DNA of 64,000 nucleotides from Actinomycetes bacterium. GTDB lineage: Bacteria > Actinomycetota > Acidimicrobiia > Acidimicrobiales > Acidimicrobilacustridaceae. The notes under the pieces were generated by a model. That model had not been told where the DNA came from, made no database searches, and saw only the letters and a list, made by a program, of their open reading frames with translations. Of the stretch, positions 5,736 to 60,409 are shown piece after piece. The translations under genes and the position numbers were made by a program. The stretch's first letter is position 1. Each line of letters starts with the position of its first letter. Where the stretch lies: contig JAKOVR010000167.1 of assembly GCA_029782025.1 (NCBI GenBank), forward strand, positions 1 to 64,000, in the 5' to 3' direction.

Positions 5736-7487
5736 TCAGGCCGGGGCGGTGGGCGGCCGCGGGGTGCCGGTGAGGAGGTGGGCGGCCCGGGCGGCGAGCG
5801 CGGCCAGCGTGAGGGTGGGGCCGTAGCCGGTGGAGGTGACGAACACCGACGAGTCGGCGCAGAGCAGGTTCTCGACGTCGTGGAAGCGCTGCTCCGGTCC
5901 CACGACGGAGGCGGCGGGATCGGTGCCCATGCGGCAGGTGCCCATCCAGTGCTTCGAGGCCGGGGCCACGCCGAGCGGGTTGGCCAGCTCCAGCGGCCCG
6001 AGCGCGCCGATGGGCGGCGAGGTGGTGGAGAAGGCCCACGTGGCGCCGGCGTCACGGAGGACCTGCTCGAGGATGGGGGCGACGTGGTCGGATGCCGCCA
6101 CCTCGTGGCGGTGCGGTGCGTAGGTGACCCGGCCGGCGGCGAGGCCCCATACGTCGCGGACGGACGGGTCGAGGTCGACGGCGTTGGTGACCTGGGGGAG
6201 GTCCTCGCCTTGCATCGTGAAGACCCACAGCTTGTCGCGCAGCTCCGATGCCACCATCGACGGGTTGTGGCCCGGGCCCCGCGGGTAGGTGCTCGCTTCC
6301 ATCACCGGGCCGGCGGCCGATCCGTGCTCGACGATGCCGCCCCGCAGCCACGGCAGCCCGGCGGCGCGGGCCGCGGCCTGCTGGGCCTCGTCGCCGATGA
6401 TGTGGTCGTCGTGGAGGTGGGTGACGGCCCGCCCGGTGTGGCCCCGCATCGAGAACGGGAACGAGCCCACGGTGAGGGTCTGGACGTGGAACATGAGGTA
6501 CCGCCCGACCAGCCCGCTCGAGTTGCCCACCCCGGAGCGCAGGAGGAGCCGCGGGGTCTCGAACGCCCCGCAGGCCAGGACCACGAAGCGGGCCCGGACC
6601 TCACGCACCGGGGCGTCGGCCGATCCGATGGCCTGCGTGGTGTCGAGGTAGCGCACACCGGTGGCCCGCCGCCCGGTGCCGTCGGTCAGCACCTCGGTGA
6701 CGACGCATTCGGGGCGGATCTCGCAGCGGCCGGTCTGCAGCGCCCGCTGGAGCATCGCCACCGGGTCGCCCTTGGCATGGATGGGGCACCCGTAGTAGCC
6801 GCAGAAGCCGCAGTTGTTGCAGGCCGGGCGGCCGTCGTAGGGCACGGAGTTGGCGCCGGTGGGGGCACGGTAGGGGTGCAGGCCCAACCGCTCGGCCGCC
6901 GGGACCGACAGCGTGGTGCCGAACATGTCGGCGCCGGGCGGCATCGGGTAGGGGCCGCTGCGCCACTCGGCGAACGGGTTGCCGCCCTTGGCCGGGTCGG
7001 CCTCGCCGGCCACCCCGATGGACCGCTCCACCTCGGCGTAGTAGGGCTCCACGTCGTCGTAGGTGATGGGCCAGTCGTCGACGGCCGCCCCCTCCACCGG
7101 GCCGAGCTCGCTGCGGAGATGGAAGTCGATGGCGCGGAACCGCGGCAGCTTGCCGTCGGCGTGCACGCCGGCCCCGCCCACGGTGGTGGGCATGTTGTTG
7201 ACGTCGCCGACGAAGAGCCGGTCGCCGTCGTCGGCGAGGTGGTCGGCCCGGCGGTAGCTGCGGGGTTCGAGCAGCGGGTCGGGGCCGAGGAAGTGGCGGC
7301 GCATGAAGCGCAGCTCGTCGTTGGCGAAGTCTCCCTTCAGGTCGTAGGGCGCGCTGAGTTCGAGGAGGTGGTTGCGTCCCTTCTCGAGCACGATGCACGA
7401 CCAACCGGCGGCGGTGACGACCTCGGCGAAGGTGGCGCCGCCGGGCCCCGACCCCACGATCACCACGTCGGCGTCGACGTCGCTCAC
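5736..7487 (-). CDS. GMC family oxidoreductase (gluconate/glucose dehydrogenase type)
   Basis: This 583-residue FAD enzyme begins with the dinucleotide-binding motif VVIVGSGPGGATFAEVV at residues 8-24. The cysteine cluster CNNCGFCGYYGC near residue 222 resembles the iron-sulfur-cluster region of membrane-linked bacterial FAD-glucose dehydrogenase alpha subunits. The C-terminal GMC motif HWMGTCRMGTD near residue 510 carries the catalytic His. The position usually Asn or His before PTLT is Gly here (GYGPTLT). These enzymes oxidise an alcohol group of a sugar, sterol or other substrate and pass electrons to a haem partner; none is encoded nearby. The GTG start overlaps the stop of the upstream subunit gene by 4 bp, indicating translational coupling and a complex. 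Confidence 0.85.
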   Translation of the reverse strand: MSDVDADVVIVGSGPGGATFAEVVTAAGWSCIVLEKGRNHLLELSAPYDLKGDFANDELRFMRRHFLGPDPLLEPRSYRRADHLADDGDRLFVGDVNNMPTTVGGAGVHADGKLPRFRAIDFHLRSELGPVEGAAVDDWPITYDDVEPYYAEVERSIGVAGEADPAKGGNPFAEWRSGPYPMPPGADMFGTTLSVPAAERLGLHPYRAPTGANSVPYDGRPACNNCGFCGYYGCPIHAKGDPVAMLQRALQTGRCEIRPECVVTEVLTDGTGRRATGVRYLDTTQAIGSADAPVREVRARFVVLACGAFETPRLLLRSGVGNSSGLVGRYLMFHVQTLTVGSFPFSMRGHTGRAVTHLHDDHIIGDEAQQAAARAAGLPWLRGGIVEHGSAAGPVMEASTYPRGPGHNPSMVASELRDKLWVFTMQGEDLPQVTNAVDLDPSVRDVWGLAAGRVTYAPHRHEVAASDHVAPILEQVLRDAGATWAFSTTSPPIGALGPLELANPLGVAPASKHWMGTCRMGTDPAASVVGPEQRFHDVENLLCADSSVFVTSTGYGPTLTLAALAARAAHLLTGTPRPPTAPA

Positions 7488-34572: not shown

Positions 34573-35760
34573 GTGGACCTGCGCTACTCCGAATCCGATC
34601 TGGCGTTCCGCGCGGAGCTGCGGTCATGGCTGGCCGACGTGCTGCCGACCCTGCCGCCCAAGCCGGCCCCCGACGACTGGCCCGCCCGCCGCGACTGGGA
34701 CACGGGCTGGCAGCGCCAGCTCTTCGAGGCGGGCTACGCCGGGATCAACTGGCCGAAGGAGTACGGCGGGCGGGGGGCCACCCTCACCGAGCAGCTGATC
34801 TACCTGGAGGAGACGACCCGGGCGGGCGCGCCGTACATCGGCGTGAACTTCGTCGGGATGCTCCATGCCGGCCCCACCGTGATGGCCGAGGCGAGCGAGG
34901 AGCAGAAGGCCTTCCACCTGCCGCGGATCCTCCGGGGCGAGGAGGTGTGGTGCCAGGGGTTCAGCGAGCCCGGCGCCGGCAGCGACCTGGCCTCGCTGTC
35001 GTGCAAGGCCTTCCGTGACGGCGACCACTACGTGGTGACGGGCCAGAAGATCTGGACGTCCTTCGCCCAGGTCGCCGACTGGTGCGAGCTGCTCGTGCGC
35101 ACCGACGCCTCGTCGAAGCACAAGGGCATCACCTGGTTGATCTGCCCGATGGACCTCCCCGGGATCGAGATCCGCCCGCTGCGCACCATCGTCGGGTCCT
35201 CGGAGTTCAGCGAGGTGTTCTTCGACGAGGTCCGGGTGCCCGTGTCCCAGCGGGTCGGCGACGAGAACGACGGCTGGCGCATCGCCATGGTGACCTTCTC
35301 CTTCGAGCGGGGCACCGGTTTCATCTCCGATCTGGTCGAGACCGACAAGATGATCTCCGAGCTCGTCGAGTTGGCCAAGCGGGTCACCCGCAAGGGCGCC
35401 ACCGCCTGGGACGACGTGGCCCTGCGGCGGGAGATCGGCCAGATGCAGGCCCAGATGGACGCCCTGTGGGCGATGACCAAGCGCAACCTGGCCCAGGCCG
35501 AGCGCAACGGCGTGCCCGGCGTCGGGGGCAGCGTCGTGAAGCTCTACTACTCCGAGCTGTTCCAGCGGCTCACCGACGTGGCCATGCGGCTGCTCGAACG
35601 GGCGTCGCTCAGCCGGGACGACGTGGGCCAGCTGGTCGGTTCGGGCTCGTTCGTGGAGGAGCGGTTGCGCTCCACCTCCTTCACCATCGCCGCCGGCACG
35701 AGCCAGATCCAGCGCAACATCGTGGCCGAGCGGATCCTCGGTCTCCCCAAGGACCGCTGA
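34573..35760 (+). CDS. Acyl-CoA dehydrogenase (large subunit of a pair)
   Basis: The 395-residue flavoprotein has the N-terminal helices YSESDLAFRAELRSWLADVL, the active-site segment WCQGFSEPGAGSDLASLSCK and the beta-domain GQKIWTSFAQVADWCELLV. The C-terminal helix is AAGTSQIQRNIVAERILGLP. The usual Glu before GT in the C-terminal helix is Ala. Adjacent unequal acyl-CoA dehydrogenases (395 and 323 residues) are typical of actinobacterial alpha2-beta2 enzymes such as those acting on steroid side chains, where only one subunit type supplies the catalytic base. The GTG start is set by CGAGGAG 5-6 nt upstream. The small subunit begins 10 bp downstream. Confidence 0.9.
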   Translation: MDLRYSESDLAFRAELRSWLADVLPTLPPKPAPDDWPARRDWDTGWQRQLFEAGYAGINWPKEYGGRGATLTEQLIYLEETTRAGAPYIGVNFVGMLHAGPTVMAEASEEQKAFHLPRILRGEEVWCQGFSEPGAGSDLASLSCKAFRDGDHYVVTGQKIWTSFAQVADWCELLVRTDASSKHKGITWLICPMDLPGIEIRPLRTIVGSSEFSEVFFDEVRVPVSQRVGDENDGWRIAMVTFSFERGTGFISDLVETDKMISELVELAKRVTRKGATAWDDVALRREIGQMQAQMDALWAMTKRNLAQAERNGVPGVGGSVVKLYYSELFQRLTDVAMRLLERASLSRDDVGQLVGSGSFVEERLRSTSFTIAAGTSQIQRNIVAERILGLPKDR

Positions 35761-35770
35761 GAGGAACCCC

Positions 35771-36742
35771 ATGGACTTCGAGCTCACCGACGACCAGATC
35801 GCCCTCCAGGAGGGCCTTCGCTCCTTCTGCTCCGGGCGGTTCCCCATCGAGGTGGTGCGGGCGGTCGAGGCCACCGGCGGCATCGACCGTGACCGCTGGC
35901 GCGAGCTGGCCGACATGGGCACCTTCGCCCTGCGGCTGGCCGAGGACGCCGGCGGCGTGGGCCTCGGCACCGCCGACGCCGTCCTCGCCTTCGAGGAGCT
36001 CGGGCGGGCCCTGGTGCCCGGGCCGCTGGTGTGGACCCACCTCGCCGCCGGCCTCGTCGACGGGGCCGCCACCGGCGAGGTGGTGGTGACCGGCATCGAG
36101 CGTGACGATGCCAGCGGCGTGATCGAGTTCCCCGCCACAGCCGACGTGCTGCTGATCCTCGACACCGACGGGGCCTGGCGGGTGGACGTGGCCGACCTCG
36201 CCCTGGCGCCCCTCGACCCGCCCCTCGACCCGCTCACCCCGGTGGCCCGCCTCACCGCCCCGCTGCCCCAGGGCGCGAAGGTGCTCGACGCCGGCCCGGC
36301 CGCCGAGCTCCGCCTCACGGGTGCGGCCCTCACCGCGGGCCAGCTCCTCGGCATCTCCACCGCCACCACCGACCTCGCCGTCGCCTTCGCCAAGGAGCGG
36401 GTGCAGTTCGACCGGCCCATCGGGCAGTTCCAGGCGCTGAAGCACCTGATGGCCGACATGCTGACCCGGTCCGAGGTCGCCCGCGGTGCCGTCTACGCCG
36501 CCGGCGTCACGGTCGACGACCCCGAGGTCGGCCCGGTGGCCCGGGCCGTGGCCGCGGCCAAGCTCACCGCCGGCGAGGCCGCGGTCGAGAACACCAAGAC
36601 CTGCGTCCAGGTGCACGGCGGCATGGGCTACACGTGGGAGGTCGACGCCCACCTGCAGCTCAAGCGGGCCTACGTCCTCGACGCCGCCTTCGGCGGCCGC
36701 GAGCACTGGGCCGAGGCCATGGCCGACCTCGCCTTCACCTGA
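35771..36742 (+). CDS. Acyl-CoA dehydrogenase, short (small subunit of a pair)
   Basis: The 323-residue protein has an acyl-CoA dehydrogenase fold, starting with ELTDDQIALQEGLRSFCSG, but is shorter than the usual 380-400 residues. The middle beta-domain is reduced, with no clear FSEPxAGSD segment. The C-terminal helices with AVAFAKERVQFDRPIGQFQA and VHGGMGYTWEVDAHLQLKR are intact. This shape fits the small subunit of heteromeric acyl-CoA dehydrogenases. A GAGAGGA ribosome-binding site lies before the ATG and only 10 bp separate it from the large subunit gene. The gene ends just before a GGGTGCG palindrome. Confidence 0.88.
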   Translation: MDFELTDDQIALQEGLRSFCSGRFPIEVVRAVEATGGIDRDRWRELADMGTFALRLAEDAGGVGLGTADAVLAFEELGRALVPGPLVWTHLAAGLVDGAATGEVVVTGIERDDASGVIEFPATADVLLILDTDGAWRVDVADLALAPLDPPLDPLTPVARLTAPLPQGAKVLDAGPAAELRLTGAALTAGQLLGISTATTDLAVAFAKERVQFDRPIGQFQALKHLMADMLTRSEVARGAVYAAGVTVDDPEVGPVARAVAAAKLTAGEAAVENTKTCVQVHGGMGYTWEVDAHLQLKRAYVLDAAFGGREHWAEAMADLAFT

Positions 36743-37912: not shown

Positions 37913-37926
37913 TGAACCGTCGTTCA
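37913..37926. promoter_or_regulatory. Operator candidate TGAACCGTCGTTCA
   Basis: TGAAC-N4-GTTCA upstream of the ligase promoter (-35-like TTGCAC and -10 TACATT). The same motif occurs at 55202 and 60395. The flanks extend the dyad to CTGAAC...GTTCAG. Confidence 0.55.
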
Positions 37927-37978: not shown

Positions 37979-39598
37979 ATGACGAGCTGGAGCACCGGGG
38001 AGCAGCACACGATCGAGGGGGTGCTGGCCGGTCGCCTCGAGGCCGATCCCGACGGGCCGTTCCTCGACGTCGTGGGCACGACCCTCACCGCCCGGGAGGT
38101 CGACACCGCCGCCGCCCGTCTGGCCGCCGGCCTCCGGGAGCTCGGCGTGCAGCCCGGCGATCGCGTCGCCTCGCTGCTCGACAACGGTGCCGCCGCCGTG
38201 ATCACCCTCTTCGCCGCCGGGAAGCTCGGGGCCGTGTCGGTGCCGATCAACACCGCCTACAAGGGCGACTTCCTCCACCACCAGCTGGCCGACTCCGGCG
38301 CGTCGGCGATGATCGTGCAGCAGGACCTCGCTGACCGGGTGGCGGCCGTCTCAGGCACGCTCGACGCCCTCCGTGCGGTCGTCGTCGAGGCCGACCCCGC
38401 GGCGGGACCGGCGCCCGCCTTCCCCGCCACCGTCTCGGCCGACTGGGCCACGATCCTGCGGGAGGCCGACCCGATCGCCGGGCCCGCCCCGGTCCGGCCC
38501 GCCGACCTGGCCACCTTCATCTACACCGCCGGCACCACCGGACCGTCCAAGGGCTGCATGCTCAGCCACAACTACGTCGTGAGCCTGGCCGATCAGATCG
38601 CCCGCACGTGGGGTCGCCGTTCCGAGGACGTGCTGTGGACCCCGCTGCCGATGTTCCATCTCAACGCCGTGGCCTGCGCCGTGGTGGGTACGTTGCTGCT
38701 CGGCGGGAGAGCGGCCATCAGCCGCAAGTTCTCGGTATCGCAGTTCTGGCCCGAGATCGCCCGCACCGGGGCCACCATCGCCTCGCTGCTCGGCACCCTC
38801 ACCGCGCTGATCGCCCAGGACGAACGCGACCACCCCGATGCCGCCGGCACCACGCTGCGCCTCGTCGCCGCCGCCCCGATGCCCCTCGACATCGCCGCCG
38901 CCTTCAAGGAGCGGTGGAACGTCGACACCTTCTCTGCCGGCTACGGCGTGACCGAGGCGTCGCTCATCTCCTCGCTCCCCGCCGGCGCCGTCAACCCCCC
39001 GGGCGCGGCGGGCCAGCCCAACGACGTCGAGTTCGACGTGCGCATCTTCGACGACGACGACAACGAGGTGGCCAAGGGCACGGTGGGGGAGATCGTGTGC
39101 CGGCCCAGGCGCCCCCACGTGATGTTCGAGGGCTACTGGGGTCGACCCGAGGCCACCCTCGCCGTGAGCCGCAACTGGTGGTTCCACACCGGCGACTTCG
39201 GCCGGATCGACGACGGCTTCCTCTACTTCGTCGACCGCAAGAAGGACTACCTCCGTCGCCGCGGTGAGAACATCTCCAGCTTCGAGATGGAGAAGATCTT
39301 CTTCGGTCACCCCGACGTGGTCGACGTCGCCGTGCACGCCGTGCCGAGCCCGATCGGCGAGGACGACCTCAAGGTCACCGCCGTGCTCCAGCCCGGCGCC
39401 ACGCTCACGGAGGAAGCCCTGTGCCGGTGGGCGGCCGAGCGGGTGCCGTACTTCGCCATCCCCCGCTACGTCGAGTTCCGCTCGGAGCTGCCCCGCAACC
39501 CCGTGGGCCGGGTGCTGAAGTACCAGCTCCGTGACGAGGGGGCCACGCCGGCCACCTGGGACGCCGAGGCCGCCGACGTCAGATTCGAGAAACGCTGA
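37979..39598 (+). CDS. AMP-dependent acyl-CoA ligase (crotonobetaine/carnitine ligase-like)
   Basis: The 539-residue ANL ligase has the P-loop-like FIYTAGTTGPSKGCMLSHNY near residue 182, GYGVTEASL near residue 321, the hinge WFHTGDFGRIDDGFLYFVDR near residue 401 and RGENISSFEMEKIFF near residue 428. At the C-terminal catalytic position the family Gly-Lys is Gly-Arg (NPVGRVLKYQLR), a substitution also seen in CaiC-like relatives. It should form an acyl-AMP and then an acyl-CoA, but the Arg could alter the adenylation step. The gene is controlled by a TGAAC-type dyad shared with the P450/amidohydrolase and ligase/dehydrogenase loci. ATG 37979 is set by TACATT. Confidence 0.9.
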   Translation: MTSWSTGEQHTIEGVLAGRLEADPDGPFLDVVGTTLTAREVDTAAARLAAGLRELGVQPGDRVASLLDNGAAAVITLFAAGKLGAVSVPINTAYKGDFLHHQLADSGASAMIVQQDLADRVAAVSGTLDALRAVVVEADPAAGPAPAFPATVSADWATILREADPIAGPAPVRPADLATFIYTAGTTGPSKGCMLSHNYVVSLADQIARTWGRRSEDVLWTPLPMFHLNAVACAVVGTLLLGGRAAISRKFSVSQFWPEIARTGATIASLLGTLTALIAQDERDHPDAAGTTLRLVAAAPMPLDIAAAFKERWNVDTFSAGYGVTEASLISSLPAGAVNPPGAAGQPNDVEFDVRIFDDDDNEVAKGTVGEIVCRPRRPHVMFEGYWGRPEATLAVSRNWWFHTGDFGRIDDGFLYFVDRKKDYLRRRGENISSFEMEKIFFGHPDVVDVAVHAVPSPIGEDDLKVTAVLQPGATLTEEALCRWAAERVPYFAIPRYVEFRSELPRNPVGRVLKYQLRDEGATPATWDAEAADVRFEKR

Positions 39599-52131: not shown

Positions 52132-53868
52132 TCAGTGGGGGAGGGCGGCGGCCACGGTGCGGGCGACGTCGCGGAGGCGGTCGTCGCCGATCGCGTCGAG
52201 CGCCGCGTCGTCGAGCTCGTCGGCGAACGAGAGGCGCTCGCGCTCGGGGGCGGGGACGGCGGCGGGGGACCAGGCCGAGTGCAGCACCAGCGGCACGCAC
52301 TCGCGGCGGCTCCCCATGAGCGTCGCCACCGGACCGCGGCCGACGTCGGCGGCGTCGAAGCACTCGATGCGGATGCCGTCGTCGGAGAGCACCGGGCAGA
52401 TCACGTACCCGTCGTGGCCCCCGGGGTCGGTCCCGGCGTAGCGGCTGCGGGCGGGGTCGGTGCCGGCGTGGCGTGGCGCGAACGCCGGCGAGGTCGGCAT
52501 GTCGCCGAGCGACGGGAACTCGAAACGGGCGTGGAGGTCGAGGCCGTCGCGGCGCCACGACGCCAGTGAGGCCGGCGTCTCGGCTCCCGGCAGCAGCGAG
52601 CGGTCGACACGGTCGCCGTAGGCGGCGAGCATCCGCTGGGTCACGTTGTGGGGACGGAAGCCCTGGTAGGCGACGTGGTGCAGCGTGGGGGCGGTCATCC
52701 CCTCGGTCGACCAGTCCATGGCCGAGAGCTGCAGGTTCCAGGTCCACTCGTGGCGCCGGATCACCTCCCGGGTGGCGGTGCCGGTGCGGGGATCGAACGT
52801 GACCTCGGAGATGGAGCTCGGCCCCATGCCCCAGTTGTAGAGGCCGACGTGGGCTGGATCGACGGGCTGGCCGAACAGGTCCACGTCGTCGGCCCGCACG
52901 CTCCACCCGAGATCGAGGCGGTCCTGGTGCTCGAACACCGCCCGCACCCGTCCGTCGCTGTCGTCGTACACGGCGTAGTAGTGGCCGGTGGTCGGGGCGA
53001 GGGGGAAGGGGATGGGCGTGATCTCGGTGCCCGGCGCCGCGGCCTCGAGGTCGTCCTTGCGGACCAGGTAGAGCGTCACCTCGTCGTCGATGGTGACGGT
53101 GCGCACGCCCGTGGACATCTCACCCGGGTCGGCCTTGAAGTTGCCGCTGTCGGACAGGAGCAGCCAGTCACGGGTCTGGGAGATCGTGTGCATCGATCCC
53201 CGCACGACCGCGCCGCTGATCGGCCACACGTCGACGGTGGTGCCGTCGCCGCGGTAGCGGACCACCGAGGCGGTGAGCGCCAGCTCGCCACCGGCCGCCA
53301 TCGAGGCGAAGTCGGGGAGGAGCTTCACCGTCCACAGGCAGTCGCGGTCCGGATCGATGACGGGGTGGGCGCTCGAGAAGTAGAAGGGGAGCGGCGCGGC
53401 CGAGGGCAGGAACGGGTCGCCCCACGTCGATCGGCTGCCCACCTCGCCGAGGAAGCCCATCGTGACCGGGTCGAGCTCGGCCGGGCGGCCCACGTCCCAG
53501 GTGGCGAAGAGTCGGTCGCCCCACGGCAGCGGCGCCGTGTTGACCATGTTGGGGCTGCCGAAGGCCGAGCCGTAGCCGGTGGCCGTCATGTGGAACGCCT
53601 CGGGGGCGAGGGCGTGGAGGCGCTGGGCCGGGGCGTCGATGGTGGTGGCCCGCCACGCCCACCGGTCGGACGGCGCACCGAAGGTGCCGGGCTGGAGCGA
53701 CAGCCGGATCATCACGCCGAAGCCGAACAGGGCATAGGAGAGCTCGGGGCTGCCGGCCGGCGCGCTGATCCACACCTCGCCGGTGCAGTCCTCGGGCCAG
53801 GCGCCGGCCACCAGCTCGAAGTCGATGTCGCCGTGGGCGGCGGTGGTCAGGGTGCGCGGGAGCGGCAT
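52132..53868 (-). CDS. Carotenoid cleavage oxygenase family protein
   Basis: The 578-residue protein belongs to the RPE65/lignostilbene dioxygenase family, a seven-bladed propeller with a four-histidine iron centre. Candidate ligands include His168 (SSAHPVIDPD), His227 (GSMHTIS), a His of LHHVAYQGF and the C-terminal His in VLHSAWSP. These enzymes cleave a conjugated double bond of carotenoids, apocarotenoids or stilbenes with O2. The substrate is not readable, and no carotenoid biosynthesis genes are near. A duplicated RYAGTDP/RHAGTDP stretch near residue 480 is local. The start has GAGGAGG 4-5 nt upstream and a TAACAT -10 at 53897. A P450 gene lies 90 bp upstream in the same direction. Confidence 0.88.
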   Translation of the reverse strand: MPLPRTLTTAAHGDIDFELVAGAWPEDCTGEVWISAPAGSPELSYALFGFGVMIRLSLQPGTFGAPSDRWAWRATTIDAPAQRLHALAPEAFHMTATGYGSAFGSPNMVNTAPLPWGDRLFATWDVGRPAELDPVTMGFLGEVGSRSTWGDPFLPSAAPLPFYFSSAHPVIDPDRDCLWTVKLLPDFASMAAGGELALTASVVRYRGDGTTVDVWPISGAVVRGSMHTISQTRDWLLLSDSGNFKADPGEMSTGVRTVTIDDEVTLYLVRKDDLEAAAPGTEITPIPFPLAPTTGHYYAVYDDSDGRVRAVFEHQDRLDLGWSVRADDVDLFGQPVDPAHVGLYNWGMGPSSISEVTFDPRTGTATREVIRRHEWTWNLQLSAMDWSTEGMTAPTLHHVAYQGFRPHNVTQRMLAAYGDRVDRSLLPGAETPASLASWRRDGLDLHARFEFPSLGDMPTSPAFAPRHAGTDPARSRYAGTDPGGHDGYVICPVLSDDGIRIECFDAADVGRGPVATLMGSRRECVPLVLHSAWSPAAVPAPERERLSFADELDDAALDAIGDDRLRDVARTVAAALPH

Positions 53869-53896
53869 CGGGTCCTCCTCGTTCCGGTGGTGAACG

Positions 53897-53902
53897 ATGT
53901 TA
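53897..53902 (-). promoter_or_regulatory. -10 TAACAT with leader for carotenoid oxygenase
   Basis: On the minus strand TAACAT lies 28 nt before ATG 53868, and the leader contains GAGGAGG. Confidence 0.4.
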
Positions 53903-53958
53903 ACCCAATGGCGTCGTCGGTGGCGGAGGGGCCCGGAGCGCCGAGGGGCCGGAGGGCG

Positions 53959-55140
53959 CTAGCCCCAGGAGATGGGCAGGTGGTCGTAGCCCCGCACGTT
54001 GCCCGAGTGGATCCGGCTGATGCCGTCGGCGTCGACGTCGTAGGCGCCGAAGCGGTCGAGGATGTCCTCGAGGGCGATGCGGGTCTCGAGCCGGGCGAGG
54101 GCGGCGCCGAGGCACACGTGCACGCCGTGGCCGAACGACAGGTGCAGCTTCTTCTCCCGCCGGATGTCGAACTCGTCGGGGCGGTCCCAGAAGCGCTCGT
54201 CGCGGTTGCCCGAGCCGAGCAGCAGCAGCACCTTCTCGTCGGCCGGGATGGTGACGCCGTGGCGGGTGACGTCACGGGTGGTGGTGCGGGCCATCAACTG
54301 GGTCGAGCCCTCGTAGCGCAACACCTCCTCCACCGCGTCGGCGCAGAGCGAGGGGTCGTCGAGGAGGAGTTGGCGCTGGTCGGGATTGCGCCAGAGCCAG
54401 TAGGTGGCGTTGCCGATGAGCTTGGTGGTGGTCTCGTTGCCGGCGATCACGAGGAGGAAGCAGAAGGCGACGACGTCCTTGTCGGTCAACCGCTCGCCGT
54501 CGACCTCGGCCGTGACCAGGGCCGAGAGCAGGTCGTCGAGCGGCCGGGCCTGCTTCTCCACCACGATGGCGCTGAAGTACTCGAAGAGCTGGATGGCGGC
54601 ATCGATGCCGTCGGCGGTGACGTCGGGGCTGCCCTCCTCGCGGTGGATCATGGCGTCGGACCAGCCGCGGAGCATGTCCTGGTCGGGTTCGGGCACCCCC
54701 AGCATCGTGGAGATCACGTCCATGGGGAGCCGGGCCGAGTACTCGGCGATGATGTCGCCGCTCGTGCGTCCGTCGAAGGCGCTGAGGTAGCGGGCCGACA
54801 GCGCCCGGATGCTCGGTTCGAGATCGGCGATGCGGCGAGGGGTGAAGGTGCGGCTGATGAGCCGGCGCATGGCCGTGTGCTCGGGCGGATCCATGGTGAT
54901 CATCATCGGGAGCGGGCTGCGGGGCTCGAGGGTGATGCCGTGGCGGGAGCAGTAGGTGTCGTAGTCGTGGAGGGCGTCGAGCACGTCGTCGTAGCGGGAC
55001 AGCGCCCAGAAGCCGAGCTCCTCGTTGTGGTACACGGGCGCCTCGTCGCGGAGGCGCCGGTAGAAGGGGAACGGGTCGTCGTGCACCTCGTGGGCGTACG
55101 GGTTGAACACGAGCGGGTCGGTGTGCGTGGCGGTGGTCAT
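53959..55140 (-). CDS. Cytochrome P450
   Basis: The 393-residue P450 has ITMDPPEHTAMRRLISRTFT, the I-helix AGNETTTKLIGNA, the ExxR helix EEVLRYEGSTQL and the haem loop LSFGHGVHVCLGAALARLE with the Cys ligand near residue 342. It resembles actinobacterial P450s next to acyl-CoA catabolic genes. ATG 55140 is preferred over the in-frame ATG at 55209 because AGAGGAG lies 5 nt upstream and the longer form would cross the promoter and operator. It is divergent from the amidohydrolase and shares the TGAAC-type operator with it. It likely forms a unit with the carotenoid oxygenase downstream. Confidence 0.9.
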   Translation of the reverse strand: MTTATHTDPLVFNPYAHEVHDDPFPFYRRLRDEAPVYHNEELGFWALSRYDDVLDALHDYDTYCSRHGITLEPRSPLPMMITMDPPEHTAMRRLISRTFTPRRIADLEPSIRALSARYLSAFDGRTSGDIIAEYSARLPMDVISTMLGVPEPDQDMLRGWSDAMIHREEGSPDVTADGIDAAIQLFEYFSAIVVEKQARPLDDLLSALVTAEVDGERLTDKDVVAFCFLLVIAGNETTTKLIGNATYWLWRNPDQRQLLLDDPSLCADAVEEVLRYEGSTQLMARTTTRDVTRHGVTIPADEKVLLLLGSGNRDERFWDRPDEFDIRREKKLHLSFGHGVHVCLGAALARLETRIALEDILDRFGAYDVDADGISRIHSGNVRGYDHLPISWG

Positions 55141-55187
55141 GGCACTCCTCTGGGCTCCCGGGGCACGGCGGTCGGTCGACTGAGCCC

Positions 55188-55193
55188 ACTGTA
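55188..55193 (-). promoter_or_regulatory. -10 TACAGT for P450, leadered
   Basis: On the minus strand TACAGT lies 47 nt before ATG 55140, and the operator dyad (55202-55215) occupies its -35 region. Confidence 0.45.
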
Positions 55194-55201
55194 CACAGTT
55201 C

Positions 55202-55215
55202 TGAACCAAGGTTCA
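55202..55215. promoter_or_regulatory. Operator candidate TGAACCAAGGTTCA between divergent genes
   Basis: A perfect TGAAC-N4-GTTCA dyad lies upstream of both the P450 (minus) and the amidohydrolase (plus). Extra half-sites GTTCTGAAC and CTGAAC flank it. It is the second of three copies of the motif. Confidence 0.6.
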
Positions 55216-55256
55216 CTTCTCTGAACTATGACTCGACATCAGGGGCGCGGAGGTCC

Positions 55257-55262
55257 TACATT
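55257..55262 (+). promoter_or_regulatory. -10 TACATT with -35-like TCGACA for amidohydrolase
   Basis: TCGACA at 55233-55238, 18 nt, TACATT. A 32-nt leader with GAAGGAG precedes ATG 55295. Confidence 0.5.
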
Positions 55263-55294
55263 GGTCCCGACCGAGCCGCGCCGAAGGAGCCCGC

Positions 55295-56569
55295 ATGCAG
55301 CCCGAAGACATGATCCTCGTGAGCGTCGACGACCACGTGGTGGAGCCGCCGGACCTGTTCGAGGGTCGGCTCCCGGCCCAGTACGCCGACCGCGTCCCCT
55401 ATGTGCGGAGGAAGTCGAGCGGGGTCGACGTGTGGATGTACGAGGGGCAGCAGATCGCCAACCTCGCCATCAACGCCGTGGCCGGTCGTCCCAAGGAGGA
55501 GTACGGGATCGACCCCACCAGCTACGACGACATCCGCAAGGGCTGCTGGGACGTCCACGAGCGGGTGAAGGACATGAGCGCGGCCGGCGTGCTCGGCTCG
55601 ATGTGCTTCCCGTCCTTCCCCGGTTTCTGCGGCCGGCTCTTCGCCACCTCGGAGGACAAGGACTACGCCGCCGCCGTGCTGCGGGCCTACAACGACTGGC
55701 ACATCGACGAGTGGTGCGGCAGCTACCCCGACCGCTTCATGCCGCTGGCCCTGCCGGCGATGTGGAGCGCGGAGGAGACGGCGGCAGAGGTGCGGCGGGT
55801 GGCCGAGAAGGGCTGCCACGCCCTCACCTTCTCGGAGAACCCGGCCGTGCTCGGCTACCCGTCCCTCCACGACACCTACTGGGACCCGGTGTGGGCAGCC
55901 TGCGCCGACACCGGCACCGTGCCCTGCATGCACATCGGGTCGTCGTCCCAGCTGGTGGTCACCGCGCCCGACGCGCCGGCCGACGTGATGATCACCCTCC
56001 AGCCGCTCAACCTGGTGCAGTGCGCCACCGACCTGGTGTGGTCGGGCATCTTCCTGCGCTTCCCCTCGCTGAAGATCGCGCTCTCCGAGGGCGGCATCGG
56101 GTGGATCCCCTACTTCCTCGAGCGCATCGACCGGACCTACGACCGGCACCGGGCCTGGACGGGGCAGGACCTGAAGGGCCAGCTGCCCAGCCAGATCTTC
56201 AAGGACCATGTGATCACCTGCTTCATCTCCGACGGGGCCGGGATCCGCAACCGCCACGACATCGGCGTGGACATCATCACCTGGGAGATGGACTACCCCC
56301 ATTCGGATGCGGCGTGGCCCCGTGCCGCCGAGGAGGTCTGGGACGAGATCGGCGACCTGCCCGACGCCGAGATCGACGCCATCACCCACGGCAACGCCAT
56401 GCGGCTGTTCGACTTCGACCCCTTCGCCGTCCGGCCCCGCGAGCAGTGCACGGTCGGGGCCCTGCGGGCCGAGGCCGCCGACCACGACGTCACCATCCGC
56501 TCGTCGGGCCAGGTCATGCGCGAAGGCCCGCTGACCGCCGCCGCCATCCAGGCCAAGGCCACCGCCTGA
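55295..56569 (+). CDS. Amidohydrolase (PF04909/ACMSD-like)
   Basis: The 424-residue TIM-barrel protein has the N-terminal metal-binding start SVDDHVVEPPDLFEGR and a barrel signature with GSMCFPSFPGFCGR. The catalytic-site segments are HIGSSSQLV, GGIGWIPYFLERID and WEMDYPHSDAAWP near residue 330. Family members cleave or decarboxylate aromatic and heteroaromatic acids (for example aminocarboxymuconate semialdehyde and resorcylate decarboxylases) or hydrolyse cyclic amides. The DxH/D pattern is partly altered (DDH), so zinc content is uncertain. A role in a CoA-dependent aromatic or terpenoid pathway is inferred from the shared operator with the P450 and ligase genes. GAAGGAG supports the start. 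Confidence 0.85.
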   Translation: MQPEDMILVSVDDHVVEPPDLFEGRLPAQYADRVPYVRRKSSGVDVWMYEGQQIANLAINAVAGRPKEEYGIDPTSYDDIRKGCWDVHERVKDMSAAGVLGSMCFPSFPGFCGRLFATSEDKDYAAAVLRAYNDWHIDEWCGSYPDRFMPLALPAMWSAEETAAEVRRVAEKGCHALTFSENPAVLGYPSLHDTYWDPVWAACADTGTVPCMHIGSSSQLVVTAPDAPADVMITLQPLNLVQCATDLVWSGIFLRFPSLKIALSEGGIGWIPYFLERIDRTYDRHRAWTGQDLKGQLPSQIFKDHVITCFISDGAGIRNRHDIGVDIITWEMDYPHSDAAWPRAAEEVWDEIGDLPDAEIDAITHGNAMRLFDFDPFAVRPREQCTVGALRAEAADHDVTIRSSGQVMREGPLTAAAIQAKATA

Positions 56570-56572
56570 CCC

Positions 56573-56601
56573 GACACCCCCGCCCTCCCGGCCGGGGTGT
56601 C
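56573..56601. terminator. 8-bp hairpin between convergent genes
   Basis: GACACCCC (56573-56580) pairs with GGGGTGTC (56594-56601) across 13 nt. It fills the gap between the amidohydrolase and alpha/beta hydrolase stops, overlapping the latter. Confidence 0.45.
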
Positions 56602-57481
56602 ACCCCGCGCAGGTCGGGCCCAGGTGGGCGTCGAGGAAGGCCACGAGCTCGTCGGCGTAGGGGCCCGGGCCGCTCCACTGCGGGTCGAGGTGGTCCACGC
56701 CGTGGTGCAGGACCAGCGAGGTCGGGCCGGCCGAGGTCGCGGCGGCCAGCACGGCCCGGCTCTGCTCGACCGGCACGATGTCGTCGGCGTCGCCGGCCAC
56801 CACGAGGAGCGGGCCCCGCACCGTGCCGATGCGGTCGATGGTGCGGAACTGCTCGTGGACGAGGAGGCCGGTGGGGTAGATCCGCACCCGGACGGCGGCG
56901 GCGTCGGCCACGGAGGTGAACGGGGAGCGGAGGACGAGGGCCGCGGGCGGCCGCTCGGTGGCCAGCCGGGTGGCCACGCCGGTGCCGAGCGATTCCCCGA
57001 CGTAGGCCACCCGGGCCGGATCCACGTCCGGTCGGGCGGCGAGGTGCGCGACCGCCGCCCGGGCGTCGGCGGCCATGCCGTCGTCGGTGGGCCGGCCGGG
57101 GTTCCCGCCGTAGCCGCGGTAGTCGGTCAGGAGCACCACGTAGCCGCGGCCGGCGAGCACGGTGGCGAGGGCGGCCAGGTTCGACCGGTCGCCGGCGGCG
57201 CCGTGGAAGAGGGCCACGGCGGCGCGGCGGCAGGCCGGCACCGACCGGGGCCCGGTCGGGATCTCCCACACGCGGAGGACGAGGCCGTCGTCGGTGGTGA
57301 CCGTCACCTCCTCACCGCCCACCAGCACCGCGCCGACCGGCGGGGCCGGGCCGCCGGTCAGGAAGATGATCCGGTCCTGGGAGAGGGTCAACGTGGCGCC
57401 AGCGGCCAGGTAGGCGACGACGGCGACGACACCGATCCGGCCGAGCACTCGCTTCCATCGGCGGGTCGGGCGGCGTTCCAC
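56600..57481 (-). CDS. Alpha/beta hydrolase with N-terminal signal anchor
   Basis: The 293-residue protein has one N-terminal hydrophobic helix (IGVVAVVAYLAAGA, about residues 16-29) and an ABHD12/13-like hydrolase fold. The nucleophile motif GESLGTG (Ser near residue 162), AGDADDIVP with the acid Asp and HHGVDHLDP with the catalytic His form the triad. Homologues cleave esters, thioesters or lipids at the membrane. GTG 57481 gives a short basic head (ERRPTRRWKR) before the helix and is preferred to a longer GTG at 57547 in the same frame. It converges on the amidohydrolase gene. Confidence 0.78.
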   Translation of the reverse strand: MERRPTRRWKRVLGRIGVVAVVAYLAAGATLTLSQDRIIFLTGGPAPPVGAVLVGGEEVTVTTDDGLVLRVWEIPTGPRSVPACRRAAVALFHGAAGDRSNLAALATVLAGRGYVVLLTDYRGYGGNPGRPTDDGMAADARAAVAHLAARPDVDPARVAYVGESLGTGVATRLATERPPAALVLRSPFTSVADAAAVRVRIYPTGLLVHEQFRTIDRIGTVRGPLLVVAGDADDIVPVEQSRAVLAAATSAGPTSLVLHHGVDHLDPQWSGPGPYADELVAFLDAHLGPTCAG

Positions 57482-57599
57482 GGGCCCACCGTGGGGCCGG
57501 CCGGGGGCGAAGGCAAGCGATCTCCGCTGGGCCGCCGTGACCTGCACCGGATCTGCACGGGTCGGGCTGCCGGCGGCGGCGGTCGGGGCGGTGGTGGCG

Positions 57600-58901
57600 C
57601 TAGCTGCGGGGGATGTCGGCCCAGGCCGCGCCCCGCCATGGATCGGGTTCGCGGGGCAGGCCGAGCACCTGCTCGCCGATGGTGTTCTTCTGCACCTCGG
57701 TGGTGCCGCCCTCGATGGTGTTGGCCCGGCTGCGCAGGAACCCGAAGACCAGCCGGTGGCTGTCGTCGTCGCCGGGCTCGTGGGCGAGGGAGGTGAGGCC
57801 GGCCACGTCGACCCACGCCTCCTGCAGCGCGACGTTGTGGCGCGTCTGGAGCAGCTTGCCCACCGAGCTCTCCGGCCCGGGTGGCCGGCCGGCCTTGCGC
57901 TGCCCCCGCGCCCGCAGGTTCGTCCACGAGAGGGTCTGCTTCTGGGACCAGAGCTGCATCAGCCGCTGCCGGACGAGCGGATCGGCCCAGGCCGGGCTCG
58001 GGCCCTCCTTGGCCCGGGCGATGAGGCGTTCCACCGAGCGCCCCCCGAGGTTGTCGACCCCGGCGCCCGAGCCCGCGCCCGAGATCATCTGGCGCTCGCC
58101 CGAGAGGGTGGTGCGGGCCACCCGCCAGCCCTCGTCGACCGGGCCGATGCGGTCGGCGTCGGGGACGACGGCGTCGTCGAGGAACACCTCGTTGAACTCG
58201 GTGTCGCCGTTGATCTGGCGGAGCGAGCGCACGTCCACGCCGGGCTGGCGGAGGTCGATGGCGAAGTAGGTGATCCCCTCGCGCTTGGGTTTGGCCGGGT
58301 CGGTGCGGGCCAGCAGCATGCCCATCTCGGAGTGGTGGGCCCAGGTGCTCCACACCTTCTGGCCCGTCACCAGCCAGCGGTCGGGGTGGGCGGGGTCGCG
58401 CACGGCGCGGGTGGCCAGCGACGGCAGATCGCTGCCGGCGCCCGGTTCGCTGAACAGCTGGCACCACCGCTCCTCGTTGCGGACGATGCGGGGCAGGAAG
58501 CGGGCCTTCTGCTCGTCGGTGCCCCATTGCAGCAGGGTGGTCCCGGCCAGGTTGATGCCGAGGATGTTGAGCCGGCCCAGGTTGTAGGGCGCGAGGACCT
58601 CCTCGATGGCGCGGGCCAGCGGGGTGCCCACCCCGAGCCCGCCATACTCGCGGGGCCACATGGCCACGGCCAGGCCCGAATCGGCGAAGGCCGGATACCA
58701 GGCCTCGTAGGCGGCGCGGGGCCGCACCTCGCGCAGGGCGACCACGCCGCCGCGCTCGGCCGCGGCGCGCCATTCTTTCGGCATCGCGGCGCGGAGCCAG
58801 TCGCGCACGACGTCCTGGGCCACGGCTGGCTCGGTGCCGGCGTCGATGGGTACCCGGCGGGCCAGCCAGGAGGCGAGGTCGATCGGGGACGGGGTGCTCA
58901 C
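57600..58901 (-). CDS. Acyl-CoA dehydrogenase
   Basis: The 433-residue flavoprotein has the segments SGLAVAMWPREYGGLGVGT, WCQLFSEPGAGSDLPSLATR, TGQKVWSTWAHHSEMGMLLA and the C-terminal IEGGTTEVQKNTIGEQVLGL. The Glu in IEGGT occupies, with one residue shift, the position of the medium-chain-type catalytic Glu. The length of 433 is slightly long for the family. The GTG start overlaps the stop of the acyl-CoA synthetase by 4 bp (GTGA), so the ligase and dehydrogenase are coupled and likely act in sequence on one acid. Confidence 0.9.
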   Translation of the reverse strand: MSTPSPIDLASWLARRVPIDAGTEPAVAQDVVRDWLRAAMPKEWRAAAERGGVVALREVRPRAAYEAWYPAFADSGLAVAMWPREYGGLGVGTPLARAIEEVLAPYNLGRLNILGINLAGTTLLQWGTDEQKARFLPRIVRNEERWCQLFSEPGAGSDLPSLATRAVRDPAHPDRWLVTGQKVWSTWAHHSEMGMLLARTDPAKPKREGITYFAIDLRQPGVDVRSLRQINGDTEFNEVFLDDAVVPDADRIGPVDEGWRVARTTLSGERQMISGAGSGAGVDNLGGRSVERLIARAKEGPSPAWADPLVRQRLMQLWSQKQTLSWTNLRARGQRKAGRPPGPESSVGKLLQTRHNVALQEAWVDVAGLTSLAHEPGDDDSHRLVFGFLRSRANTIEGGTTEVQKNTIGEQVLGLPREPDPWRGAAWADIPRS

Positions 58902-60409
58902 GTCGGGGCTCCGGGGTCGGGCGGGCCGGCGGGGGCGGTCGGGAGCAGGTCCCGGCGGACCACCTTGCCGACGTCGTTGCGGGGGAGGGCGGCGATGGTC
59001 TCGTAGCGGACCGGCACCTTGTAGGCGGCCAGCGCGTCGCGGCAGTGCGCGTCGAGCACCTCGGGGGACGGGGGGCTCGACGGGTCGGCGGGGACGACGA
59101 AGGCCCACGGCACCTGACCGAGCCGCTCGTCGGGCGCGCCGACCACGGCCGCGTCGGCCACGGCGGGGTGCCGGCGCAGCACCTCCTCGACGTCGTCGGG
59201 CCACACCTTCATCCCGCCCCGGTTGATGAGATCGGACACCCGCCCCGTGATCCAGACGAACCCGTCGTCGTCGATGCGGGCGATGTCGCCGGTGCGGAGG
59301 TGGCCGTCGGGCCGGGTCCGGTCGGCCAGCGCCGGGTCGTGGTCGGGCGTGATCATCGACGGGGCCCGGACGCAGAGCTCGCCCTGGCCTCCTTCGTCGG
59401 GCTCGAGGATGTAGGCCGACACGCCGGGATGGGGCCGTCCGACGGCGCCGAGCTTGGTGGCCCCGAAGGCTCGGGTGTCGGCCGCCGTCCACCCGATCAC
59501 CTCGCCGCCGAGCTCGGTCTGCCCGTAGGCGTTGAGCACGGTGACGCCGAAGCGTTCGTGGAAGCGCCTCGCCTGATGGACCGACAGCGGGGCGGTGATC
59601 GACCGCACCATGCGGAGCGGCGCCAGGTCGGTGACGGTGGGATCGTCGTTCAGCGCCGTCATCATGGCCGGGGCGAGCACCGTGCTCTTGATGCCGTGGT
59701 CCCGCACCGCGGCGGCGAAGCCGGCGGTGGTGAACGGATCGAGGAGGACGACGGGGTTGCCGGCCCGGAAGGCGAACAGCACCTGGTAGATGCCGGCCCA
59801 CAGGCACAGCGGGACCGGCACGAGGTTCGGCACGGGTGGCCGATCCGGATCGGGGCCGGGCGCGGCGTCGGGTCCGCGGAGGGAACGAAGGACGGTGTCG
59901 ATGCCGTTGAGGACGTTGGCGTGCGACAGCTCCACGGGTTTGGGGGCGCCGGTCGTGCCCGAGGTGGTGAGCACCAGGGCGATGTCGCCGGCGGAGCGAT
60001 CCCGGTCCGCCGGCGACGACGCCGGGCTCGGGACGCGGCTCGCCGTCCATGTGCCCGCGGGGGTGGGCGTGAGGGCGAGGGTGGCGCCGGCCCGTTCGAC
60101 GTGGGCCCGACGCTCGCCCGGGGTGAGACGGGGATTGACGGGCACGGCGACCCGTCCCGCCTGCCACACCCCGAACAGCGCGGCGACGAACGCGGCGGAG
60201 CCGGGGGCCTCGATGGCGACCCGCTCGCAGTCGCCGCCCGGATCGGCGGTCGCGATCGTGGCGGCGGCTTCCGCGGCCGCGGCCACGACCTCGGTGAAGG
60301 TCCACGACACGCCCGTCAACGGGTCGAACACGGCGGGTCGATCGCCCGCCGGCGCGGCGGGCAGCGCGGCCAGGACCCCCAGAGGGCCTGGTTCTGAACC
60401 GTCGTTCAC
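58898..60409 (-). CDS. Acyl-CoA synthetase (AMP-forming)
   Basis: The 503-residue ANL ligase has the loop LVLTTSGTTGAPKPVELSHA near residue 143, AYGQTELGGEVIG near residue 294, the hinge RTGDIARIDDDGFVWITGRV near residue 373 and the C-terminal lysine in LPRNDVGKVVRRDL near residue 485. It likely activates an aromatic, fatty or terpenoid carboxylate. The GTG 60409 start is fixed by TAGATT 7 nt upstream; the TGAAC-type operator lies on the first codons (60395-60408), so a bound repressor would block elongation or initiation. It heads a two-gene operon with the dehydrogenase. Confidence 0.88.
   Translation of the reverse strand: MNDGSEPGPLGVLAALPAAPAGDRPAVFDPLTGVSWTFTEVVAAAAEAAATIATADPGGDCERVAIEAPGSAAFVAALFGVWQAGRVAVPVNPRLTPGERRAHVERAGATLALTPTPAGTWTASRVPSPASSPADRDRSAGDIALVLTTSGTTGAPKPVELSHANVLNGIDTVLRSLRGPDAAPGPDPDRPPVPNLVPVPLCLWAGIYQVLFAFRAGNPVVLLDPFTTAGFAAAVRDHGIKSTVLAPAMMTALNDDPTVTDLAPLRMVRSITAPLSVHQARRFHERFGVTVLNAYGQTELGGEVIGWTAADTRAFGATKLGAVGRPHPGVSAYILEPDEGGQGELCVRAPSMITPDHDPALADRTRPDGHLRTGDIARIDDDGFVWITGRVSDLINRGGMKVWPDDVEEVLRRHPAVADAAVVGAPDERLGQVPWAFVVPADPSSPPSPEVLDAHCRDALAAYKVPVRYETIAALPRNDVGKVVRRDLLPTAPAGPPDPGAPT
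60395..60408. promoter_or_regulatory. Operator candidate TGAACCGTCGTTCA within the 5' end of the ligase gene
   Basis: The 14-bp dyad is identical to that at 37913 and overlaps the start region of the acyl-CoA synthetase gene. A second, overlapping perfect palindrome, TTCACAATTGTGAA (60405-60418), covers the start codon and reaches into the -10. Confidence 0.6.

Follow-up and report, generated by a model that had tools for sequence, protein, structure and literature searches.

A dispersed, putatively TetR-controlled regulon with a DitZ/PtmU3-like amidohydrolase-related protein in an Acidimicrobiales genome

Genes and operator sites at the locus

The stretch of DNA analysed here (the window: 64,000 nucleotides of contig JAKOVR010000167.1, from an Actinomycetes bacterium of the order Acidimicrobiales) represents contig C45 of a 4.63-Mb genome that is 95.7% complete in 219 contigs, and has a G+C content of 73.7%. 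It carries a group of catabolic genes around one that encodes an amidohydrolase-related protein, hereafter AH, together with a short operator that recurs at several of their promoters. The original prediction had named six genes between positions 52132 and 60409, and all six are present there, each over the Pfam cut-off by which family identity was judged. They encode a carotenoid-cleavage-type oxygenase (52132..53868, minus strand; RPE65/CCO PF03055, 62.5 bits), a cytochrome P450 (53959..55140, minus strand, ATG start at 55140; PF00067, 97.5 bits), AH itself (55295..56569, plus strand; Amidohydro_2 PF04909, 97.3 bits), an alpha/beta hydrolase (56600..57448, minus strand; Hydrolase_4, 69.9 bits), an acyl-coenzyme A (CoA) dehydrogenase (57600..58901, minus strand; three Pfam domains over cut-off) and an acyl-CoA ligase (58898..60409, minus strand; AMP-ligase, 179.1 bits; GTG start at 60409 or 60331). 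The last two are coupled, as had been proposed, by a 4-base overlap (58898-58901) that joins the ligase stop to the dehydrogenase start. A second acyl-CoA ligase, the distant ligase (37979..39598, plus strand; PRK06155-like, 453 bits against a cut-off of 722), follows an acyl-CoA dehydrogenase pair, comprising a large partner (34573..35760, plus strand; TIGR03204-like, 236 bits, below cut-off) and a short IpdE2-like partner (35771..36742, plus strand; NF050027 IpdE2, 131.5 bits, cut-off 450). None of these ligases and dehydrogenases reached a cut-off that names a substrate.

The operator, TGAACNNNNGTTCA, has three exact matches in the window: TGAACCGTCGTTCA at 37913..37926, upstream of the distant ligase; TGAACCAAGGTTCA at 55202..55215, between the divergent P450 and AH genes; and TGAACCGTCGTTCA again at 60395..60408, at the ligase start and directly 3′ of a TAGATT −10-like box. 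The prediction of a TGAAC operator at two of the promoters and at a distant ligase is therefore borne out by exact sites. Five exact sites exist in the whole genome, each preceding catabolic genes or lying at their start; the remaining two stand before a hydratase-type operon (contig C123) and before an SDR-TetR-SDR-LLM operon (contig C177). In 300 first-order Markov simulations of the window not a single exact match appeared, and the pattern read backwards, used as a control, occurs once in the genome versus five times for the operator. When up to two mismatches are allowed, the window shows no enrichment (6 sites found, 7.63 expected).

The placement of the sites is not uniform. At the TetR operon a TAGGGT box abuts the operator in this genome and in two relatives (G005 and G007), and this position, like the one behind the TAGATT box of the ligase, would suit repression. 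Upstream of the distant ligase and AH, the operator lies ahead of the −35 box presumed there, which may mean a different kind of control.

A TetR-type regulator and the regulon in related genomes

Operator sites and gene presence were surveyed in 61 genomes, about 25 of them from a single genus, and the co-occurrence tests ignore kinship. Homologues of the TetR encoded in the C177 operon (E <= 1e-25) give 17 matches in 16 of the 61 genomes. Twelve of these are no more than ~3.1 kb away from an AH homologue, and one more, in G004, is 7 kb away. The other four, from our genome, G005, G007 and G008 (71-73% identity to our own), are encoded in an SDR-TetR operon with an exact operator before the SDR gene. 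Nine genomes, all of one genus, have an exact site ~97-121 bp before the AH match. Of eight loci that were fetched, two have a perfect site upstream of AH, four a site with one mismatch and two a site with two. An operator with at most one mismatch lies no more than 250 bp upstream of AH in 6 of 8 loci with a TetR homologue versus 0 of 71 without (Fisher p 1e-7, uncorrected for kinship; 79 of the 80 named AH loci, since L144 has too little upstream sequence). Because the TetR gene stands so close to an AH homologue in 12 of its 17 matches, the C177-type TetR is, on these sequence grounds, the likely regulator of the operator genes.

A known counterpart is the KstR cholesterol regulon of mycobacteria, which includes P450s, ligases and KshA. 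It shares with the present set a TetR repressor, a short palindrome with AAC/GTT half-sites, a dispersed set of lipid-degradation genes and self-control (PMC1995591). The KstR site in that source, TnnAACnnGTTnnA, has a 2-base spacer; the operator pattern used here fixes the spacer at 4 bases, KstR-type sites not having been searched for. The C177 TetR scores 29.2 bits against KstR (cut-off 280), and a KstR identity is rejected on this score and the spacer. In several genomes a periplasmic-binding-protein-like gene (PF13458; L091:7568-8926 and homologues) is located between the operator and TetR, and this gene between AH and TetR may encode a ligand sensor or a transport part. Two further conserved regulon-associated proteins (L086:6583-8598; ~246 and 423 residues) have no Pfam match, and the second has no NCBIfam match either.

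The putative target genes themselves recur together elsewhere. AH has orthologues of 77-81% identity in G004, G005 and G007. In G005 the P450 (70%), AH (77%) and the distant-ligase orthologue (76%) are adjacent, with an exact operator between P450 and AH at the same place as in the window, and are followed by orthologues of the dehydrogenase pair at 34573-36742 (82% and 68%). That pair is found near the ligase orthologue in all three genomes, the large partner at 81-85% and the short one at 68-70% identity, and the distant-ligase orthologue is preceded by an exact operator in G004 (L076) and G007 (L080). The P450 orthologues adjoining AH in G005 and G007 are 70-71% identical to ours, and the G007 P450-AH pair has only inexact operator sites. 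In G004 the operator heads an AH2-Rieske-P450 operon (P450 57-58%), and in G008 a Rieske-P450 pair (P450 65%) at a locus that ends with its contig. The coupled ligase-dehydrogenase pair (54% and 73%) is operator-headed in G007 (C307), with the same TAGATT box and spacing; in G005 (C12) an operator-headed operon with hydratases holds orthologues of its dehydrogenase (60%) and ligase (56%). For G007, in which a caller trained on the window left genes undetected, tblastn was used instead. Exact operators thus accompany orthologues of P450 and AH in G004 and G005, of the distant ligase in G004 and G007, and of the ligase-dehydrogenase pair in G005 and G007. The dehydrogenase is present in 15 of the 16 TetR-bearing genomes and in 25 of the 61 overall (p 6e-7, kinship uncorrected). 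The P450, AH, the ligase-dehydrogenase pair and the distant ligase therefore appear to form one regulon, with scattered members that are found again in other genera. Among the relatives that bear the operator, Thermomonospora echinospora (L124) is in culture.

Not every operator match is likely to belong to this set. Those inside genes (G007:C274, G005:C11, G003:C122) are probably noise, as are the match at a gene junction in G009:C165 and two inside genes of a mirrored stretch in G003:C50. The latter stretch (L088) carries the same nine genes twice in mirror image, as an inverted repeat centred near position 7190, and may be an assembly artefact. Intergenic matches in G004:C252 and G003:C147 and the second site of G005:C9 were not assigned to the regulon; five further matches include two in G002 and one each in G012:C15 and G008:C190.

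Identity and metal site of AH

AH had been described as an ACMSD-type amidohydrolase, an assignment that does not survive comparison with solved structures. By sequence its closest solved relatives are DitZ (8uyr, E 2.3e-109) and PtmU3 (6omp, 1.6e-37), and ACMSD follows far behind (~5e-5), which excludes the ACMSD-type decarboxylase subtype. The predicted fold, from a model of pLDDT 90 built with 32 sequences, is a PF04909 TIM barrel that matches PtmU3, SfbO and AibH, and gives the same order: DitZ at Z 49.4, PtmU3 at 37.9, the uncharacterised 4dzi at 33.5, and then AibH, SfbO and ACMSD at 30-32. These values come from Foldseek matches rechecked by alignment, and families without a Foldseek listing are not excluded by them; fold alone, in this model, does not separate AibH, SfbO and ACMSD as relatives of AH. 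The nearest named relative (80%) comes from a metagenome-assembled genome called Acidimicrobiales bacterium.

The metal site points in the same direction. Seven residues of AH (D12, H14, H213, E265, D333, H336 and D338) are invariant in 81 of 81 homologues, and the first six match all of the first-shell ligands given for AibH2 (D25, H27, H211, E265, D337 and H340) in PMC7782822. That source describes an acid at the position of D338 as conserved only in the binuclear members (PMC7782822). At this place, two residues after the His of the DYPH motif, PtmU3 has a Glu and the mononuclear AibH1 a His.

DitZ, from Rhodococcus rhodochrous, has nearly the same length and fold as AH, the same metal-site motifs and 39% identity over 402 residues; no paper on DitZ and its reaction was found in the literature searched by name. 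PtmU3 is a diiron hydroxylase of diterpenoid (platensimycin) biosynthesis. It shares with AH the fold, the D-x-H, H, E and DYPH motifs and the acid two residues on, but the two are only 28% identical, and PtmU3 is biosynthetic whereas AH belongs to a TetR-linked, degradation-type gene set. PtmU3 also accepts CoA-ligated substrates (PMC7782822). AH thus looks like an amidohydrolase-related dinuclear oxygenase of the DitZ/PtmU3 type, a group for which the name AROs has been introduced (PMC10811679).

The same source puts PF04909 at more than 100,000 proteins, mostly uncharacterised and with very few dinuclear oxygenases described, and lists hydrolases, hydratases and (de)carboxylases in the family (PMC10811679). 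AH could accordingly belong to the same regulon and act as a hydrolase or decarboxylase, the ordinary PF04909 chemistry, on a ring-opened CoA intermediate. ACMSD and other decarboxylases do align well with the model (Z ~29-30, with 4dzi at 33.5), and no dedicated electron donor was seen near AH in the loci scanned. AROs elsewhere were found through a neighbouring small Rieske ferredoxin gene, which is an aid to discovery and not a definition (PMC10811679). A motif scan of 26 loci, not all of them with AH and read through a gene caller that can miss small genes, found no small ferredoxin or Rieske ferredoxin beside AH; it returned five Rieske genes, all oxygenase-sized (308-371 residues), and one 4Fe ferredoxin on our C177. 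DitZ and PtmU3 are nevertheless far ahead as structural matches, and the seven dinuclear-site residues are without exception among the homologues, so that a hydrolase or decarboxylase seems to us unlikely, if still the best of the alternatives.

Substrate class and proposed pathway

Genes near the TetR operon bear on the substrate. On C177, ~19 kb from this operon and beside another PF04909 gene, lies a Rieske oxygenase gene with a KshA_C domain (118 bits), and KshA-like Rieske genes are operator-headed in the sister genomes G004 and G008. A fusion of zf-ChsH2/OB_ChsH2 (ChsH2-DUF35) with a thiolase-like domain, which matches both Ltp2 and ChsH2 of 6ok1, is encoded ~2.8 kb before our TetR operon with one gene between, and directly beside it in G005. 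Together with the IpdE2-like acyl-CoA dehydrogenase pair and the hydratases, the KshA-like Rieske protein and the Ltp2-ChsH2 fusion suggest, as far as sequence can, that a polycyclic isoprenoid acid, like those of steroids or diterpenoids, is catabolised in a CoA-dependent way. The P450 has a likeness in the dit resin-acid cluster of Pseudomonas abietaniphila, where a P450 opens the degradation of a tricyclic diterpenoid acid (PMC13063091). A further KshA-like Rieske gene (54% to that of G004), cut by the contig end, lies on our own contig beyond the window (L186, G000:C45:72627-73124).

These genes also argue against a TetR regulon of general scope, one for fatty acids with branched or long chains. 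Such a regulon would be consistent with the best match of the C177 TetR, which is to the FadR model (61 bits, cut-off 200), and with ligases and dehydrogenases that no substrate-naming model claims. The operator-headed KshA-like Rieske genes of the sister genomes, the Ltp2/ChsH2 fusion beside the TetR operon and the PtmU3-type enzyme are, to our knowledge, not fatty-acid enzymes, and we consider this explanation improbable.

Several observations weigh against a polycyclic isoprenoid regulon with an oxygenase at its centre, in addition to the good fit of ACMSD structures (Z ~30) and the absence of a ferredoxin gene described above. Our own KshA-like Rieske gene and our own fusion gene each lack an exact operator. 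HsaD, the steroid ring hydrolase, has no match over cut-off in the genome, its best one, near the KshA-like gene of C177, reaching 87 of 400 bits, which lends no support to a full steroid-ring route; weak HsaD matches say little, since the family gives sub-cut-off matches in 13 of 14 control genomes. The AHs with a linked operator (17 rows, including two whose sites have 2 mismatches) cluster without forming one clade, requiring 5 changes versus 15.9 in shuffles, and AH homologues of the mycobacterial and Streptomyces loci examined have neither operator nor TetR. Finally, the pattern has a background: the 61 genomes hold 115 exact operator sites versus 36 control matches (sums added by hand), so perhaps about one third of the sites in other genomes are due to chance.

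The two remaining genes of the locus are probable bystanders. The original prediction had them within one candidate catabolic module; CoA activation and oxidation, the operator and the distant ligase stay in what looks like a co-regulated set, and the carotenoid-type oxygenase and the alpha/beta hydrolase probably drop out of it. The oxygenase is intact in its iron ligands, since His168, 227, 296 and 530 are conserved in every one of the 15 rows aligned (from 14 distinct proteins, as one of our own appears twice; 3 of 18 wanted rows were dropped for want of a gene call), and is one of eight PF03055 matches in the genome. Its promoter has no operator at up to two mismatches, though a TGAAC half-site with a different partner and other spacing (TGAACGATGTTAAC, at 53891) lies before the gene. 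Ten loci of its homologues (51-61%; nine relatives and one paralogue of our genome, from 17 homologues of at least 47%) lack an exact operator and contain nothing closely homologous to the P450, AH, the ligases or the dehydrogenases, only one distant P450 (35%) and several SDR-like matches (29-35%) that are common in such loci; conserved neighbourhood, proposed as a check on the module, is seen for P450, AH and distant ligase in G005 and is absent for this oxygenase in the ten loci. Nor does its presence follow that of TetR (5 of 16 TetR genomes, 15 of 61 overall, p 0.51, kinship uncorrected). The alpha/beta hydrolase has no orthologue in 60 genomes, its only two relatives there being 37-38% identical (E <= 1e-25). 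With the oxygenase probably not a member and AH not of the ACMSD type, there is no longer a ground for the proposed cleavage of a conjugated substrate, and hydroxylation and beta-oxidation of an isoprenoid-type acid fit better. Despite its four iron-binding His, its place next to the P450 and its lone half-site, a carotenoid-type oxygenase that cleaves a conjugated phenylpropanoid or apocarotenoid, with its neighbours performing CoA activation and oxidation, is therefore very improbable.

Eight dispersed palindromes, in which the outer stem GTGGGTGCG...CGCACCCAC is constant and the inner one variable, were found in 229 kb of scanned sequence from our genome (window 20593, 36761 and 52073; L048:9287, L185:13019, L005:710, L006:1289 and L023:1520). 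They are possibly terminators or REP-like elements.

From the computed gene identities, operator sites, conserved TetR-operator-AH linkage, metal-site residues and predicted fold, we infer as follows what the TetR binds and how it controls it, what AH catalyses, on which substrate the pathway acts and in which order its steps run. The C177 TetR would bind TGAACNNNNGTTCA and control the P450 and AH, both ligases and the dehydrogenases encoded with each of them, a pathway intermediate most likely releasing it. The P450 would form a carboxylate by oxidising a steroid- or diterpenoid-like polycyclic isoprenoid, and from this carboxylate the ligases would make CoA esters. AH, as a two-metal TIM-barrel monooxygenase, would then hydroxylate the CoA ester. 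Shortening of the side chain or opening of the rings would fall to the dehydrogenases, hydratases, SDRs and the Ltp2/ChsH2-type aldolase. This dispersed TetR-controlled regulon for polycyclic isoprenoid acids, with AH as its dinuclear oxygenase, is the explanation that we favour, at a confidence a little above even.

With the operator, the pathway can be traced in genomes of uncultured bacteria even where its genes lie far apart. A regulon that ties a subgroup of PF04909 to acyl-CoA ligases, P450s and a TetR also offers testable substrates, and a way to choose O2-activating members of the family. More tentatively, and with somewhat less than an even chance in our view, the DitZ/PtmU3 branch may be chiefly catabolic, made up of dinuclear oxygenases with CoA esters of polycyclic isoprenoid acids as the substrates that they hydroxylate, partly under dedicated TetR regulons, and uncultured bacteria of the Acidimicrobiia type may have an undescribed isoprenoid degradation route that combines a P450, a KshA-like Rieske oxygenase and a dinuclear oxygenase.

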